Shown here in pieces: positions 297-6,195 of a DNA stretch of 6,195 nucleotides. The stretch spans positions 1-6,195 of the forward strand of contig JAKACS010000206.1 of assembly GCA_021821235.1 (NCBI GenBank), read 5' to 3'. Source of the stretch: Bacillota bacterium. GTDB lineage: Bacteria > Bacillota > Bacilli > Bacillales_B > DSM-18226. The position numbers and the translations under genes are program-made. Below the pieces are notes generated by a model. That model had not been told where the DNA came from. It did no database searches and saw only the letters and a program-made list of their open reading frames with translations. Each line of letters starts with the position of its first letter. The first letter of the stretch is position 1.

Positions 297-352
297 TTCT
301 TATGTCATTCTTAGTTCTGCTTCAGCTAAAATTCAGAAACAATGCTTAAAAT
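297..352 (+). promoter_or_regulatory. Promoter with four tandem half-sites, upstream of the cupredoxin gene
   Basis: Half-sites are TTCTTA (297-302), TTCTTA (308-313), TTCAGC (321-326) and TTCAGA (332-337). Spacing within each pair is exactly 11 bp and between the pairs 13 bp. A -10-like TAAAAT lies at 347-352, nine bases after the last half-site. No good -35 exists at the right distance, which suits an activator-dependent promoter. The same arrangement, with the same offsets, lies before lgt (4743-4798). Direct repeats about one helical turn apart are the usual target form for OmpR/PhoB-family regulators, and one is encoded at 1793-2470. Binding is inferred. Confidence 0.6.
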
Positions 353-2474: not shown

Positions 2475-3854
2475 ATGCCAATACGTTTACGGTTAACGCT
2501 TTGGAACAGTGCCATTTTTGGTACCATTTTGGCGCTTATTATTTCCCTCATTTATTATGCTCATTATCGATCACATTACCAAGACGTTGATACAATGCTC
2601 AGCACGATTACATCCCATGTGCACGAAGAATTGAATAAGCAATTGAGCAGTGGAAAGAAACTTGAGAATATTCAAGTATCTGCAGATGAGCTGGGCGTCA
2701 ATCAAGTCGCAGTAATGATTCGGAATCAATCTGGCCAACTGATGGAAACGAATGACCATCCATTTTTTAAAAATCATCAGCCGGAATGGGTGAAGCCAGG
2801 GTCAACAAGCAAGTCTTTTATGATGATAAAGGATAATAAGGGGAAAAGAATTCGCGTATTGACAACAGCAGTCCACCAAAATGGTAAAACAGTGGGTTAC
2901 ATTCAAACACTCTACCCGTTGCAGGAACTGGATCAGTCACTGTTAAAGTTCCAATGGCTTGTGATTGCCTTGACGGTCTTTAGCCTCATTCTTGCCTCGA
3001 TTGCTGCCTGGTTTTTAGTAAAGAAGACATTGTCAAGGGTGGACTTAGTCCGAAAAACGGCGAAGGCCATCGCAGTTTCTCAAGATTTTCAGCAGCGAGT
3101 GATGCACACCGGCCCATCCGATGAACTTGGCAAATTGGCAGAAACGTTTAACAGTATGCTTGACAGTCTCGAGAAGGCCTACACCAATCAGAAAAGGTTC
3201 CTCTCGGATGCCTCACATGAATTACGGGCACCGCTGACAACGATCCGGGGCAATCTCGATATTTTGACAAAAGTGAAAAATATCCCTGAAGGCGAAAAGG
3301 CGGAGATTTTGACGGACATTCGAAACGAGGCCATTCGGATGTCAAAGCTTGTTTCCGATTTGCTTTCACTGGCAAGAGTCGAAGCAGGACAGGTCGGGAA
3401 CAAAAAGGTTGTTTGCCTGTCGGCGATTACAAAAGGAGTGCTTGCGGAAATTGTCTCATGGGAGAAAACAATTACAGTTGAATCCGAAATGGATGAGAAT
3501 GTTTGTGTTTGGGGCGAGGAAGATTCTCTCAAGCAGTTGATGATCATCCTAATTGAAAATGCGATAAAATATTCTCCGCTAAATGGTTCGATTCTTGTGA
3601 AGATTACGAAGGAAAACGAAAAAGCAGTAATCGTCGTGAAAGATTCCGGCATTGGAATTGAGGAAAGCGAGCTGTCGCAAATTTTTGAACGCTTCTATCG
3701 CACTGACGCTGCGAGGAGACATTCCCAAGATGGCACAGGCCTTGGTCTTGCGATTGCAAAATCGATTGTGGAAGAAAATCAAGGAACGATTTTCGTAAAA
3801 AGCAGGGTTCGTGAAGGGACAGAATTCAAAATTTTGTTCCCGCTCCTTAAGTAG
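2475..3854 (+). CDS. Sensor histidine kinase with HAMP domain, partner of the upstream regulator
   Basis: A 459-residue membrane kinase. Helix 1 is at about 11-29 and helix 2 at about 160-183, bounding an extracytoplasmic sensor of about 130 residues. A HAMP linker follows (about 184-237), then HisKA with phospho-acceptor H248 in SDASHELRAPLTTIRGN. The ATPase domain has the N box (N362 in ENAIKYSP), G1 (D390 in DSGIGI), F box (FERFYR) and G2 (GTGLGLAIA from G420). All catalytic motifs are intact. The sensor loop has no Cys but has several His (30, 34, 48, 50, 95, 101, 134) and Met residues. That is compatible with metal sensing but is not a recognised signature. It shares the operon with the regulator: TGA 2468-2470 and GGGA come just before ATG. 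The gene's last bases may also carry part of the prsW control region. Confidence 0.95.
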   Translation: MPIRLRLTLWNSAIFGTILALIISLIYYAHYRSHYQDVDTMLSTITSHVHEELNKQLSSGKKLENIQVSADELGVNQVAVMIRNQSGQLMETNDHPFFKNHQPEWVKPGSTSKSFMMIKDNKGKRIRVLTTAVHQNGKTVGYIQTLYPLQELDQSLLKFQWLVIALTVFSLILASIAAWFLVKKTLSRVDLVRKTAKAIAVSQDFQQRVMHTGPSDELGKLAETFNSMLDSLEKAYTNQKRFLSDASHELRAPLTTIRGNLDILTKVKNIPEGEKAEILTDIRNEAIRMSKLVSDLLSLARVEAGQVGNKKVVCLSAITKGVLAEIVSWEKTITVESEMDENVCVWGEEDSLKQLMIILIENAIKYSPLNGSILVKITKENEKAVIVVKDSGIGIEESELSQIFERFYRTDAARRHSQDGTGLGLAIAKSIVEENQGTIFVKSRVREGTEFKILFPLLK

Positions 3855-3907: not shown

Positions 3908-3957
3908 GTTCGATATATTAGGATAGAAGCCTATCGTACGCTCGAACTTTATTTTTT
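3908..3957 (+). terminator. Nested hairpin with T tract between kinase and prsW genes
   Basis: GTTCGA (3908-3913) is complementary to TCGAAC (3942-3947). Inside, GATAG (3922-3926) pairs with CTATC (3931-3935) around AAGC. TTTATTTTTT (3948-3957) follows directly, giving the look of an intrinsic terminator for the two-component operon. It ends at the base before the prsW ribosome binding site. If prsW uses the promoter at 3893-3898, this hairpin begins at or near its 5' RNA end and could act as an attenuator. Confidence 0.5.
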
Positions 3958-3973
3958 GGAGAGAGGGATAGAG

Positions 3974-4672
3974 ATGTTATCAATTTTACTTGCTGGGACA
4001 GCGCCGGGGATGGCTTTGTTGAGTTACTTTTATTTGAAAGACAAGTATGAGCCGGAGCCAGTGTTATTAGTGGTTCGCACCTTTCTTTTCGGAGCCTTGT
4101 TAATCCTTCCGGCAGCTTTTATTGAATATGTGCTGAACAGTGAAAACATAGGCAGTTCGGATTTAAGCAGTTCCTTTCTTACTTCCGGAATGCTTGAAGA
4201 ATCGTTTAAATGGATTGTTCTCTTTTTTTCGGCATACCGGCATGTTGAATTTGACGAACCTTTTGATGGCATTGTGTATGGAACATCGGTTTCGTTAGGT
4301 TTTGCTACGGCTGAAAATATTATGTATTTGCTTTCAAATGGAGTGGAATTCGCGCTGAATCGAGCACTGTTCCCAGTCTCAAGCCATGCCTTGTTTGGCG
4401 TGATCATGGGCTATTATCTAAGCAGGGCAAAATTTGCAGCCAAATCAAAATGGGCATGGATTGTATTGTCCATCGCCGTTCCATCCATCTTGCACGGCAT
4501 CTTTAACTATATTTTAATCAAGGAAACTTCCTGGCTGACAGTTATGGTTGGTTATATGATCTTTTTGTGGTGGTTTGCGATGAAAAAAATCCATATTGCT
4601 GAGCTACTAAGCAAAGCGCATTTTAGTAAACAGTATGGCATTCGAAAAGCACTTAACTCAACATTGGCTTGA
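3974..4672 (+). CDS. prsW: PrsW-family glutamic-type intramembrane protease
   Basis: A 232-residue multi-pass membrane protein, close to the roughly 218 residues of B. subtilis PrsW. In-frame TTG at 3956 lies inside the T tract and ribosome binding site, so ATG 3974 is chosen; GGAGAGAGGG (3958-3967) is 6 nt upstream. Family motifs are intact: early YEPEP (25-29), E75-E76 in LEESFKW, FDEPFDGIVYG (93-103), GFATAEN (109-115), SSHALFGVIMGYYL (136-149) and H174 in LHGIFNY. The paired Glu and this His match the residues known to be needed in PrsW. B. subtilis PrsW makes the first cut in the anti-sigma factor RsiW under envelope stress. No anti-sigma gene is in this window, so the substrate here is unknown. 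A strong terminator follows, making it a single-gene unit or the end of a read-through transcript. Confidence 0.93.
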   Translation: MLSILLAGTAPGMALLSYFYLKDKYEPEPVLLVVRTFLFGALLILPAAFIEYVLNSENIGSSDLSSSFLTSGMLEESFKWIVLFFSAYRHVEFDEPFDGIVYGTSVSLGFATAENIMYLLSNGVEFALNRALFPVSSHALFGVIMGYYLSRAKFAAKSKWAWIVLSIAVPSILHGIFNYILIKETSWLTVMVGYMIFLWWFAMKKIHIAELLSKAHFSKQYGIRKALNSTLA

Positions 4673-4742: not shown

Positions 4743-4798
4743 TTCTTATGCTGTTCTTATCATCAATTCAGTTTGTTCTTAGAATGGATTGTTAAATT
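4743..4798 (+). promoter_or_regulatory. Promoter with four tandem half-sites, upstream of lgt
   Basis: Half-sites are TTCTTA (4743-4748), TTCTTA (4754-4759), TTCAGT (4767-4772) and CTTAGA (4778-4783), with a -10-like TAAATT at 4793-4798. Offsets 0, 11, 24, 35 and 50 are identical to those at 297-352. A further TTCTTA (4776-4781) overlaps the fourth site. There is no clear -35, as expected if an activator is required. The region lies directly after the prsW terminator and faces lgt. A single response regulator acting on both promoters is the simplest reading. Confidence 0.6.
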
Positions 4799-4932: not shown

Positions 4933-5760
4933 ATGATACCTATTTTTAGTATTGGCCCCATTACTTTTTATTTTTTCGGCTTAATGATTGCAATTGGTGC
5001 ATTGACAGGCCTTTATTTTTTAACGACTGAAGCCAAAAGGCAGGGTCTTAACCATGAAGCGTTAATGGAAATTGCTGTTTATTCCGTCATCGGCGGGATC
5101 CTTGGGGCGAGGATTGTGTATATCCTTGTATATGATCCTTCCTATTATTTAGCAAACCCAATGAAAGTATTTGCGATCAGTGAAGGCGGGCTTTCGATCC
5201 ATGGTGGCATTTTAGGCGGAGTATTGGTTGGTTTATGGCTATTGAGAAGGCGTGGAATTCCAATTTGGCAAACATTAGACATCGTTGCCCCTGCGATTAT
5301 TCTAGCGCAAGGAATTAGCCGAATTGGCTGTGACGTATTCGGCGGGCCGATTTCCCGCAGTTTGCCTTGGGGGGTAGAGGTAAACGGCGAGTACCTTCAT
5401 CCAGCCCAAGCATATGAATTTCTTTTAGACTATTTAATGTTTGGCTACTTGTGGCTGCGATTGAGGAAACCTGCCTATAGAGGGCAAGTTTTTATTCATT
5501 ATTTGATTGGGTATATGATCATTCGCGGAATTGTCGAGTTTACCCGTGTAAATCCGATCGTATTTGGGCCATTCAGTGTCAGCCATGTTTTAAGTTTAAT
5601 TGGCATCCTTTTCGGGATCGTTTTAATTTGGTTTCGTCGAAAAAGTCCAGCCGTGAACGAGGGAGTTGTTTTAAAAAAGAGCGATTATGTAAAAACATCG
5701 CTAACGGTGTTGATCTTAATGATCATCTCATTAGTGATTTACTACACCATTCGCGGCTAA
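4933..5760 (+). CDS. lgt: Divergent prolipoprotein diacylglyceryl transferase (Lgt) family protein
   Basis: A 275-residue polytopic membrane protein of normal Lgt length. Lgt moves diacylglycerol from phosphatidylglycerol to the lipobox Cys of prolipoproteins. Visible family features are the N-terminal GPITFYFFGLM, GARIVYI (58-64), H90 in SIHGGILGG (the essential His of Lgt), the HPAQAYE motif (156-162) and RGIVEFTR (198-205). The signature loop is altered: canonical GRIGNFINGE reads SRIGCDVFGGP (129-139), so the Arg is kept (R130) but the conserved Asn is C133 and the Glu is G138. It is thus probably an accessory paralog with changed specificity, not the housekeeping enzyme. Lgt copies of this kind are known from Firmicutes copper-resistance regions, as I recall. 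ATG 4933 has GAGGA 9 nt upstream. The His-rich gene follows after 58 bp without a terminator, so co-transcription is likely. Confidence 0.88.
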   Translation: MIPIFSIGPITFYFFGLMIAIGALTGLYFLTTEAKRQGLNHEALMEIAVYSVIGGILGARIVYILVYDPSYYLANPMKVFAISEGGLSIHGGILGGVLVGLWLLRRRGIPIWQTLDIVAPAIILAQGISRIGCDVFGGPISRSLPWGVEVNGEYLHPAQAYEFLLDYLMFGYLWLRLRKPAYRGQVFIHYLIGYMIIRGIVEFTRVNPIVFGPFSVSHVLSLIGILFGIVLIWFRRKSPAVNEGVVLKKSDYVKTSLTVLILMIISLVIYYTIRG

Positions 5761-5818: not shown

Positions 5819-6007
5819 ATGCTAAAAAAATTTGCCATCCCTATACTCATTGCCTTAGTGATTGTATTTATTTTAGCACTGCTGGGAAAATGGACATGGA
5901 TTTTATGGGGAATCATCCTTCTCCATCCGTTAATGCATGTATTTGGCCATAACCATTCAGGATCCCATAATCATGCTAAAAACAAGGATACTCATCATCA
6001 TCATTAA
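5819..6007 (+). CDS. Small His-rich membrane protein, DUF2933-like
   Basis: A 62-residue protein. Two short hydrophobic segments (about 5-22 and 25-39) are split by GKW, followed by the LLHPLMHVFGHNH block and a His-rich tail ending in four His. Ten of the last 27 residues are His (36, 40, 44, 46, 50, 52, 59-62), with M39 among them. The P-L-M-H-x-F/L-x-H pattern after a two-helix hairpin resembles the DUF2933 family, small proteins often found beside copper genes. Its function is not known. The tail could bind Cu, Zn or Ni and act as a metal buffer or donor at the membrane. AGGAAGGA (5803-5810) lies 8 nt before the ATG. No good promoter is seen in the 58-bp gap, so it is probably transcribed with lgt. 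Confidence 0.75.
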   Translation: MLKKFAIPILIALVIVFILALLGKWTWILWGIILLHPLMHVFGHNHSGSHNHAKNKDTHHHH

Positions 6008-6035: not shown

Positions 6036-6064
6036 TTGCATACTATACCAGGGTATACTATAAT
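6036..6064 (+). promoter_or_regulatory. sigA-type promoter of the csoR-like gene
   Basis: TTGCAT (6036-6041) and TATAAT (6059-6064) are separated by exactly 17 bp. An alternative pairing, TTGACG (6029-6034) with TATACT (6054-6059), has a 19-bp spacer and is less likely. AAGGAGGT (6071-6078) lies 7 nt before ATG 6086. The spacer is filled by a palindrome, so repression by blocking polymerase is expected. Confidence 0.8.
6044..6057. promoter_or_regulatory. Palindromic operator, probably for the CsoR-like repressor
   Basis: TATACC (6044-6049) and GGTATA (6052-6057) are perfect complements around AG, wholly within the promoter spacer. CsoR-family operators are typically ATACC/GGTAT palindromes with G/C runs near the centre. 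This one fits that form but has shorter G/C runs than the known copper sites. It lies before the CsoR-like gene itself, so autoregulation is likely. Confidence 0.65.
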
Positions 6065-6085: not shown

Positions 6086-6195
6086 ATGGCATCCGAATTA
6101 CAAAATGATCCACTTGATGATGGAAACTATTTTTCCTTTTTGGAGGAACAAAAAAGTACCCATTCTGAAAAAGTGAAACAAAACCTCGTATCACG
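6086..6195 (+). CDS. csoR: Probable CsoR-family metal/thiol-sensing repressor, N-terminal fragment
   Basis: Partial gene: 36 codons, cut by the right edge. It begins MASELQNDPLDDGNYFSFLE and continues to STHSEKVKQNLVS followed by the first two bases of an Arg codon (CG). A variable acidic N terminus followed by HSEKxKxxLxxR is how CsoR-family proteins usually begin, just before their RLxRIEGQxRGI helix. The metal-binding Cys-His-Cys residues would lie downstream and are not visible, so copper CsoR, persulfide CstR or formaldehyde FrmR types cannot be told apart. The call also rests on the ATACC/GGTAT-type operator overlapping its promoter and on the metal-related neighbours. A copper ATPase and chaperone often follow such a gene. 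Confidence 0.6.
   Translation, partial: MASELQNDPLDDGNYFSFLEEQKSTHSEKVKQNLVS

Follow-up and report, generated by a model that had tools for sequence, protein, structure and literature searches.

A four-half-site promoter layout that accompanies an OmpR-family response regulator in six lineages of Bacillota and probably marks a regulon for copper handling in the envelope

The stretch of DNA analysed here (6,195 bp, hereafter the window) begins with the 3' end of a gene that, by eye, resembles those of M23 peptidases. It is followed by a gene coding for a membrane-anchored protein with a cupredoxin domain (425–841, + strand; PF13473, 8.4e-18), for which the GTG at 425 is the likely start since its nearest homologues are 138 aa long (the closest, from Neobacillus sp. 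SM06, is 94% identical over 138 aa). A CcdA/DsbD-like membrane protein (856–1677, +), which we take to resemble CcdA and which had no match in Pfam, is encoded from 14 bp past the cupredoxin gene; its orthologs in the relatives G001 and G003 (71% and 68% identical, respectively; see below) likewise lie directly 3' of a cupredoxin gene. Next come genes for an OmpR/PhoB-family response regulator (RR; 1793–2470, +), with both a receiver (PF00072, 9.9e-33) and a winged-helix Trans_reg_C domain (PF00486, 2e-28), for its cognate sensor histidine kinase (2475–3854, +; HAMP, HisKA and HATPase_c domains), for a PrsW intramembrane protease (3956–4672, +; NF033739, above cut-off), for an Lgt homologue (4933–5760, +; TIGR00544, 142.1 bits vs. 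a cut-off of 118.9) and for a small His-rich membrane protein (5819–6007, +) that had no match in Pfam and whose G001 homologue is a DUF2933 protein. A last gene, starting at 6086, resembles by eye the CsoR-family gene found at the same place in G001, and the promoter-like stretch just 5' of it holds a perfect inverted repeat (TATACC-AG-GGTATA, 6044–6057), presumably a CsoR-type operator by its looks. The RR scored under the curated cut-off in all 25 NCBIfam models listed (the best 25 of 103 matched); an identity as a PhoB/PhoP phosphate regulator (TIGR02154, 228.5 bits vs. a cut-off of 296.2) or as a CopR/CzcR/SilR heavy-metal regulator (TIGR01387, 231.1 vs. 279.2 bits) was not supported. In the sensor region of the kinase, H30 and H48-x2-EE are kept in six of six aligned orthologs and are possible metal ligands.

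The original prediction had claimed that two promoters of the window, P1 and P2, have the same arrangement of four half-sites (boxes), and direct reading of both confirmed this, with boxes at offsets 0, 11, 24 and 35 and a TANNNT −10 at offset 50. P1 (297–352, +) consists of TTCTTA (297–302), TTCTTA (308–313), TTCAGC (321–326), TTCAGA (332–337) and the −10 TAAAAT (347–352), and P2 (4743–4798, +) of TTCTTA (4743–4748), TTCTTA (4754–4759), TTCAGT (4767–4772), CTTAGA (4778–4783) and the −10 TAAATT (4793–4798). Counted from the first base of box 1, P1 lies 128 bp 5' of the cupredoxin start and P2 lies 190 bp 5' of lgt; P2 probably also serves the small His-rich gene 3' of lgt. TTCTTA-N5-TTCTTA without mismatch occurs at two places in the window, which are P1 and P2; allowing 2 mismatches adds two more. 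Aligned with each other, the 56-mers share 33 of their 56 bases, 26 of the 30 that make up the boxes and the −10 and only 7 of the remaining 26; in agreement with the original prediction, P1 and P2 are therefore no plain duplication. Against a 57-bp weight matrix derived with the window sequences left out, P1 scored 42.3 and P2 29.5, compared with −3.5 for the next position of the window, a maximum of −3.2 in the reversed window sequence and a maximum of 12.4 in 600 random windows (order-2 Markov). The shared layout is not due to chance. The PrsW gene has no box of its own, as P1 and P2 are the only positions in the window that exceed −3.5 in this profile. In an alignment of 25 sites the fourth box reads YTNA (offset 35 is T or C in all 25, T36 is kept in 24 and A38 in 24), and CTTAGA of P2 is therefore a normal fourth box. 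The table of 25 sites was picked by hand: four sites with 4 mismatches were kept by eye (G576 3877 and 12388, G003 42946, G916 16126), and others with 4 mismatches were omitted (G001 15906 and 31267; G003 19424, 44098 with a profile score of 14.6, 46547 and 52880; G916 943), as were matches displaced by 11 bp within a site already in the table, and G145, being no RR neighbourhood. A promoter and terminator scan of the window gave about as many sites as shuffled sequences (18 vs. 16.2 and 4 vs. 4.8, respectively); it misses P1 and P2 with their offset-50 −10 because both are without a −35.

A scan of genome contigs with the cupredoxin alignment returned 49 loci, three of them close: L001 from Bacillus sp. 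522_BSPC (G001), L002 from Paraliobacillus quinghaiensis (G002) and L003 from Bacillus canaveralius (G003). In G001, an lgt ortholog, the cupredoxin, a copper P-type ATPase, the RR (79–80% identical) and the kinase are encoded on one 36.6-kb contig with six sites (≤3 mismatches), and G003 has six sites (≤3 mismatches) inside 40 kb around its RR. Paraliobacillus has the cupredoxin and lgt genes, but its RRs do not exceed 43% identity, and L002 contains neither a convincing box nor an exact two-box match; its whole genome gave 6 hits vs. 5 in the reversed control. Its cupredoxin/lgt pair is accompanied, in place of the RR, by a gene that by eye is BlaI/CopY-like (L002:10364–10804), possibly a regulator replacement. 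Among 193 family genomes, the RR (E ≤ 1e-75) and the cupredoxin (E ≤ 1e-15) co-occur in the same two, G001 and G003. Searched for with ≤1 mismatch, the box pattern was matched 25 times, in 20 of the 193 genomes; 5 of the hits lie in G001 and G003, and the other 20 are at background level (31 for the reversed control, hand tally). One of these 20, in G009, is probably real: it lies directly 3' of an interrupted lgt on an 8-kb contig with an ATPase-like ORF (by eye), in a draft genome that gave no RR at E ≤ 1e-75. At the level of the class, 42 of 398 genomes had an RR match at E ≤ 1e-75, and the neighbourhoods of eight of these were examined (G001, G576, G588, G916, G876, G845, G580 and G597), including all four with an RR at least 67% identical; G1067, G982 and G948 were added from a family search (4 of 275 genomes at E ≤ 1e-88). 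At the level of the order, an RR match at E ≤ 1e-80 came from 1 of 397 genomes; no further RR turned up in the orders of G588 (14 genomes) and G576 (6 genomes), and a plasmid search gave no match to the cupredoxin and a best RR match of 60% identity.

The expected conservation of the boxes with orthologs of the regulator was found: boxes lay near the RR in all eight sequences with an RR at least 67% identical to that of the window (the window, G001, G003, G576, G588, G916, G1067 and G982), and hits in family genomes without the RR stayed at background. G916, G1067 and G982 have common sites and thus count as one lineage, so that the eight sequences represent six. The pairing of half-sites 11 bp apart, proposed to suit dimers of an OmpR-family regulator, is kept near the orthologs in all eight (0/11 and 24/35). 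With RRs of 53–63% identity (G948, G876, G845, G580, G597), none of the five fetched stretches contained a hit at ≤4 mismatches. In a leave-one-genome-out profile the 20 profile sites scored 24.6–48.7, and the best positions in the three of the five box-less stretches that were profiled scored −12.7 (G948), −6.3 (G876) and −10.1 (G845). Genome-wide scans that ignored the RR placed 4 of the 6 hits with ≤2 mismatches in G001, including the best three, on the 36.6-kb contig of the RR, and 6 of 12 hits in G003 within 40 kb of it. The single best hit in G576, one of two joint best in G588 and the two best in each of G1067 and G982 were also beside the RR; the scan of G916 was weak (1 of 11 hits beside the RR, all with 3 mismatches, p 0.07), and that of G948 gave no hit beside the RR. 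The corresponding clustering probabilities, calculated post hoc, ranged from 3e-10 (G003) to 0.07 (G916). Of the window proteins, the RR and the kinase alone had a match in every one of the five clusters compared (blastp E ≤ 1e-6, half length). Taken with the layout and the fixed −10 described below, this linkage in six lineages supports the original idea of one regulon of the adjacent OmpR-family regulator, and the box is very probably the control site of the neighbouring RR, as judged from sequence comparison. The word local holds in part: boxes do lie beside the RR, but target membership varies and G576 has two more boxes with a −10 about 170 kb from its RR (L208:9607 and L208:12488, the second preceding a YHS gene), so that the regulon is not strictly local there.

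Directly 5' of the RR gene no box was found in the window, G001, G003, G576 or G588, and autoregulation through such a box is unsupported in these five; in G916 a box lies about 500 bp 5' of the RR gene, with an equivalent in G1067 and G982. Box-bearing RRs have the recognition helix SNVLEVYxGYLR[HRS]K, and the five box-less homologues have A[MLN]LRQ, a difference that would agree with a changed DNA specificity but follows phylogeny. HT in the wing is not exclusive to the box-bearing RRs, being present in box-less G580. Among 120 listed RR relatives, 96 have GYLR, 22 RYLR and 2 AMLR.

The position of the −10 was analysed with hits chosen on boxes 1–3 only (all with ≤3 mismatches in eight RR neighbourhoods, n = 22, three of which are one identical site common to G916, G1067 and G982). 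TANNNT stood at exactly offset 50 in 21 of the 22; with the window, in which this offset had first been noticed, left out, the figure is 19 of 20. At the 66 other offsets the mean number was 0.53 and the highest 4. One site, G576 19015, matches in three boxes, has no −10 at offset 50 and has a profile score of 4.1. With ≤4 mismatches, the −10 was present in 28 of 35 hits. Among the loci of the pattern search (87 delivered, 2 of them unscored; G009 was counted as near since it adjoins lgt), the offset-50 −10 occurred in 17 of 17 near the RR and 2 of 68 far from it, and box 4 (T36 and A38) in 17 of 17 and 10 of 68, respectively. Box 4 and −10 were found together in one far locus (1/68), L169, which lies 5' of a YHS gene in G576. 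A recognisable −35 (at least 4 of 6 positions of TTGACA, spacers 16–18) was present in none of 20 sites. In PhoB-dependent promoters, the pho box replaces the −35 at a fixed step before the −10; the sites studied here likewise lack a −35 and keep a fixed distance between boxes and −10, as is typical of PhoB-like (class II) promoters. Divergent four-box sites stand back to back in intergenic DNA of G003 (40234, − strand, and 40250, + strand) and G001 (35240, −, and 35270, +); three of these four have the offset-50 −10, and the fourth (G001 35240) has a profile score of 21.5.

Several kinds of gene start about 70–190 bp after a box (counted from the first base of box 1). Besides the window, a cupredoxin gene follows a box in G003 (182 bp), and in G001 the box lies 501 bp 5' of the cupredoxin gene with a small His-rich ORF between. 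Other genes found after boxes within this range code for copper P-type ATPases (G001, G576), a YHS protein and then an ATPase (G003, G588), a multicopper oxidase (G576), DUF2933-like His-rich proteins (G001, G576, G588), small His-rich ORFs (G001, G003) and a cysteine-synthase-like enzyme (G003). The ATPases of G001, G576 and G588 were identified by TIGR01511, and that of G003 is an 83% identical homologue. Homologues of the small His-rich protein of the window begin 68–87 bp after a box in G001, G576 and G588. Since copper genes thus stand behind boxes in relatives, as expected of a copper regulon, the boxes most likely mark a regulon for copper, or for envelope functions linked to copper. 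Boxes are also followed, at these or greater distances, by genes with no obvious part in copper handling, namely those of an MFS transporter (G003), of a Na/H exchanger and of LemA (G001) and a MarR-family gene (G916), and one G003 box has a CsoR-family gene 508 bp on. A box was found 3' of the kinase gene (11–379 bp) in G001, G576, G588 and G916; G003 has none there, and in the window the PrsW gene stands between the kinase gene and P2. In G001, no good box was seen 5' of the lgt ortholog, and one lies just 3' of it, as in G009. Among the clusters examined, lgt stands directly behind a box with a −10 only in the window; an lgt-like gene of G576 follows the odd site 19015.

The geometry, the missing −35 and the fixed −10 point to activation by two RR dimers at a σA promoter. 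We consider it likely, from sequence evidence, that the P1/P2 element is an activator-dependent σA-type promoter of the two-component system encoded between the two sites, and that its regulon serves copper handling in the envelope. Phosphorylated RR would bind the four direct half-sites (consensus YTCTTA-N5-TTCTYA-N7-YTCAGN-N5-YTNAG) as two tandem dimers, the proximal of which would cover the −35 region, devoid of TTGACA, and end 9 bp before the −10. From this position it could touch the sigma subunit as PhoB does at the pho box; we infer from the geometry that the contact is with sigma region 4. Genes activated here would be the cupredoxin/CcdA-like pair as well as lgt and the gene of the small His-rich protein, and in relatives those of the copper P-type ATPase, YHS protein, multicopper oxidase and cysteine-synthase-like enzyme. 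Copper would be the signal for the RR, judging by the identity of the targets. The promoter can be classed as an OmpR-family tandem-repeat promoter of unusually rigid layout with a plausible role in copper handling. A more tentative reading, less likely than not, is that of a copper-responsive two-component regulon not previously described, of patchy occurrence in Bacillaceae and beyond them in Bacillota, whose promoter has four half-sites in rigid spacing and into which an Lgt homologue would have been recruited here to sustain lipoprotein lipidation under copper stress.

A rather unlikely but arguable reading has the RR activating through the box in response to envelope or lipoprotein stress, in the manner of MprA, with copper as one trigger only. 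TTCTTA lies within the motif of C. glutamicum MprA, the regulon of which concerns the cell envelope (PMC12113857); lgt is among the targets in the window, PrsW is in its cluster, and LemA, Na/H exchanger, MFS transporter and cysteine-synthase-like genes are found downstream of boxes in relatives. Copper P-type ATPases, however, follow boxes in four lineages (G001, G003, G576, G588), YHS, multicopper oxidase and cupredoxin genes do so in at least one lineage each, and CsoR-family genes belong to the G001 and G003 clusters, all of which favours copper. The overlap of boxes 3 and 4 with the −35 and spacer would also suit an RR that represses P1 and P2 by covering the −35 region, an improbable arrangement given that 0 of 20 sites have a −35 at spacers 16–18 and that a rigid distance from box to −10 is a requirement of activation via sigma contact.

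That a different regulator of the cluster uses the box (a CsoR-family repressor, another two-component system or an alternative sigma factor) is very improbable. Some clusters do contain CsoR-family genes and further two-component systems, but of the proteins in the window just the RR and kinase recur in all five, and the G001 proteins with matches in at least three clusters included no further regulator (same blastp thresholds). CsoR operators are inverted repeats, whereas the box consists of direct repeats 11 bp apart, and TANNNT is a σA-type −10. Moreover, Paraliobacillus, which has cupredoxin and lgt but an RR of at most 43% identity, is the relative without an exact two-box match in L002 and with 6 genome hits vs. 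5 in the control. As for a likeness of P1 and P2 by chance or by promoter duplication, AT-rich intergenic DNA does yield TTC-rich matches, but random windows reached 12.4 at most (vs. 42.3 and 29.5), 7 of 26 identical non-box positions speak against duplication, and the layout is kept in six lineages; with the fixed −10 in addition, we regard this explanation as practically ruled out.

The claim that the box is not a described one is correct in part. The MprA motif of C. glutamicum is TKTTAAGAAM, whose reverse complement, KTTCTTAAMA, contains TTCTTA (PMC12113857); the agreement concerns the half-site, not the layout, and some RR relatives are labelled MprA by JGI. MprA differs in having one loose 10-bp motif and an envelope regulon in an actinobacterium, with no four-site layout described in the part of the paper available (PMC12113857). 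The four-site box with its fixed −10 was not recognised among the papers listed, on the basis of titles and the beginnings of abstracts, and the term "MprA box" was not found in the search. Pho boxes of PhoB/PhoP in E. coli and B. subtilis are alike in being tandem 11-nt direct repeats bound head to tail by an OmpR-family RR with sigma contact (PMC4415409); their repeat is CTGTCAT, whereas here it is TTCTTA/TTCAG with a 13-bp step between dimers. CopRS of C. glutamicum, too, is a two-component activator of a local copper cluster with a direct repeat at an 11-bp step, but its site, TGAAGATTT-n2-TGAAGATTT, is apparently single in the text available, lies 266–285 bp 5' of one mapped start and is actinobacterial (PMC3140484). 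The CiaR-like box of another Bacillus RR, NTTAAG-N5-TTTAAG (PMC4938410), has the same 11-bp step and a different half-site. The best PDB sequence matches to the RR, and so its closest relatives with solved structures, are PhoP and PrrA of Mycobacterium tuberculosis, which have a similar recognition helix (SYLRRK in PhoP, GYLRRK in PrrA) and HT in the wing; M. tuberculosis PhoP differs in its repeat consensus, ACKKKYARC, and in a third repeat at variable distance, as far as the accessible portion of PMC3413638 describes. Listeria lit2 resembles lgt of the window in being the gene of a lipoprotein-modifying enzyme in a copper-inducible copper-resistance operon, but Lit2 is an enzyme other than Lgt, producing lyso lipoproteins from diacyl ones, and the excerpt available describes no two-component control (PMC7387801).

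For a Bacillota regulator without an operator found in the literature, the boxes provide a concrete, testable site and a list of targets in six lineages, and they form a natural series of sites for studying how OmpR-family dimers replace the −35 contact. A published proposal holds that copper blocks the Lgt reaction of E. coli (PMC6538781), and lgt as a target would link this block with the lipoprotein enzyme in the copper operon of Listeria (PMC7387801). If Lgt here were both copper-induced and copper-tolerant, the reason for lipoprotein enzymes in copper clusters would become directly testable. Lgt homologues are encoded in the copper clusters of several lineages (window 4933–5760, G001 16309–17136, G576 19146–19991, G916 311–1096 and L002:4110–4943), with G002 and G009 among the clusters that have one. 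Those of the window and G001 read RIGC-DVFGG where canonical Lgt reads RIGNFxNGE, and their activity is therefore uncertain. The cupredoxin family is marked by an invariant CDxCCGG..NPxMQG stretch and by H99. This comes close to the CuA pattern, with no His at the CuA spacing, and may form an unusual copper site.
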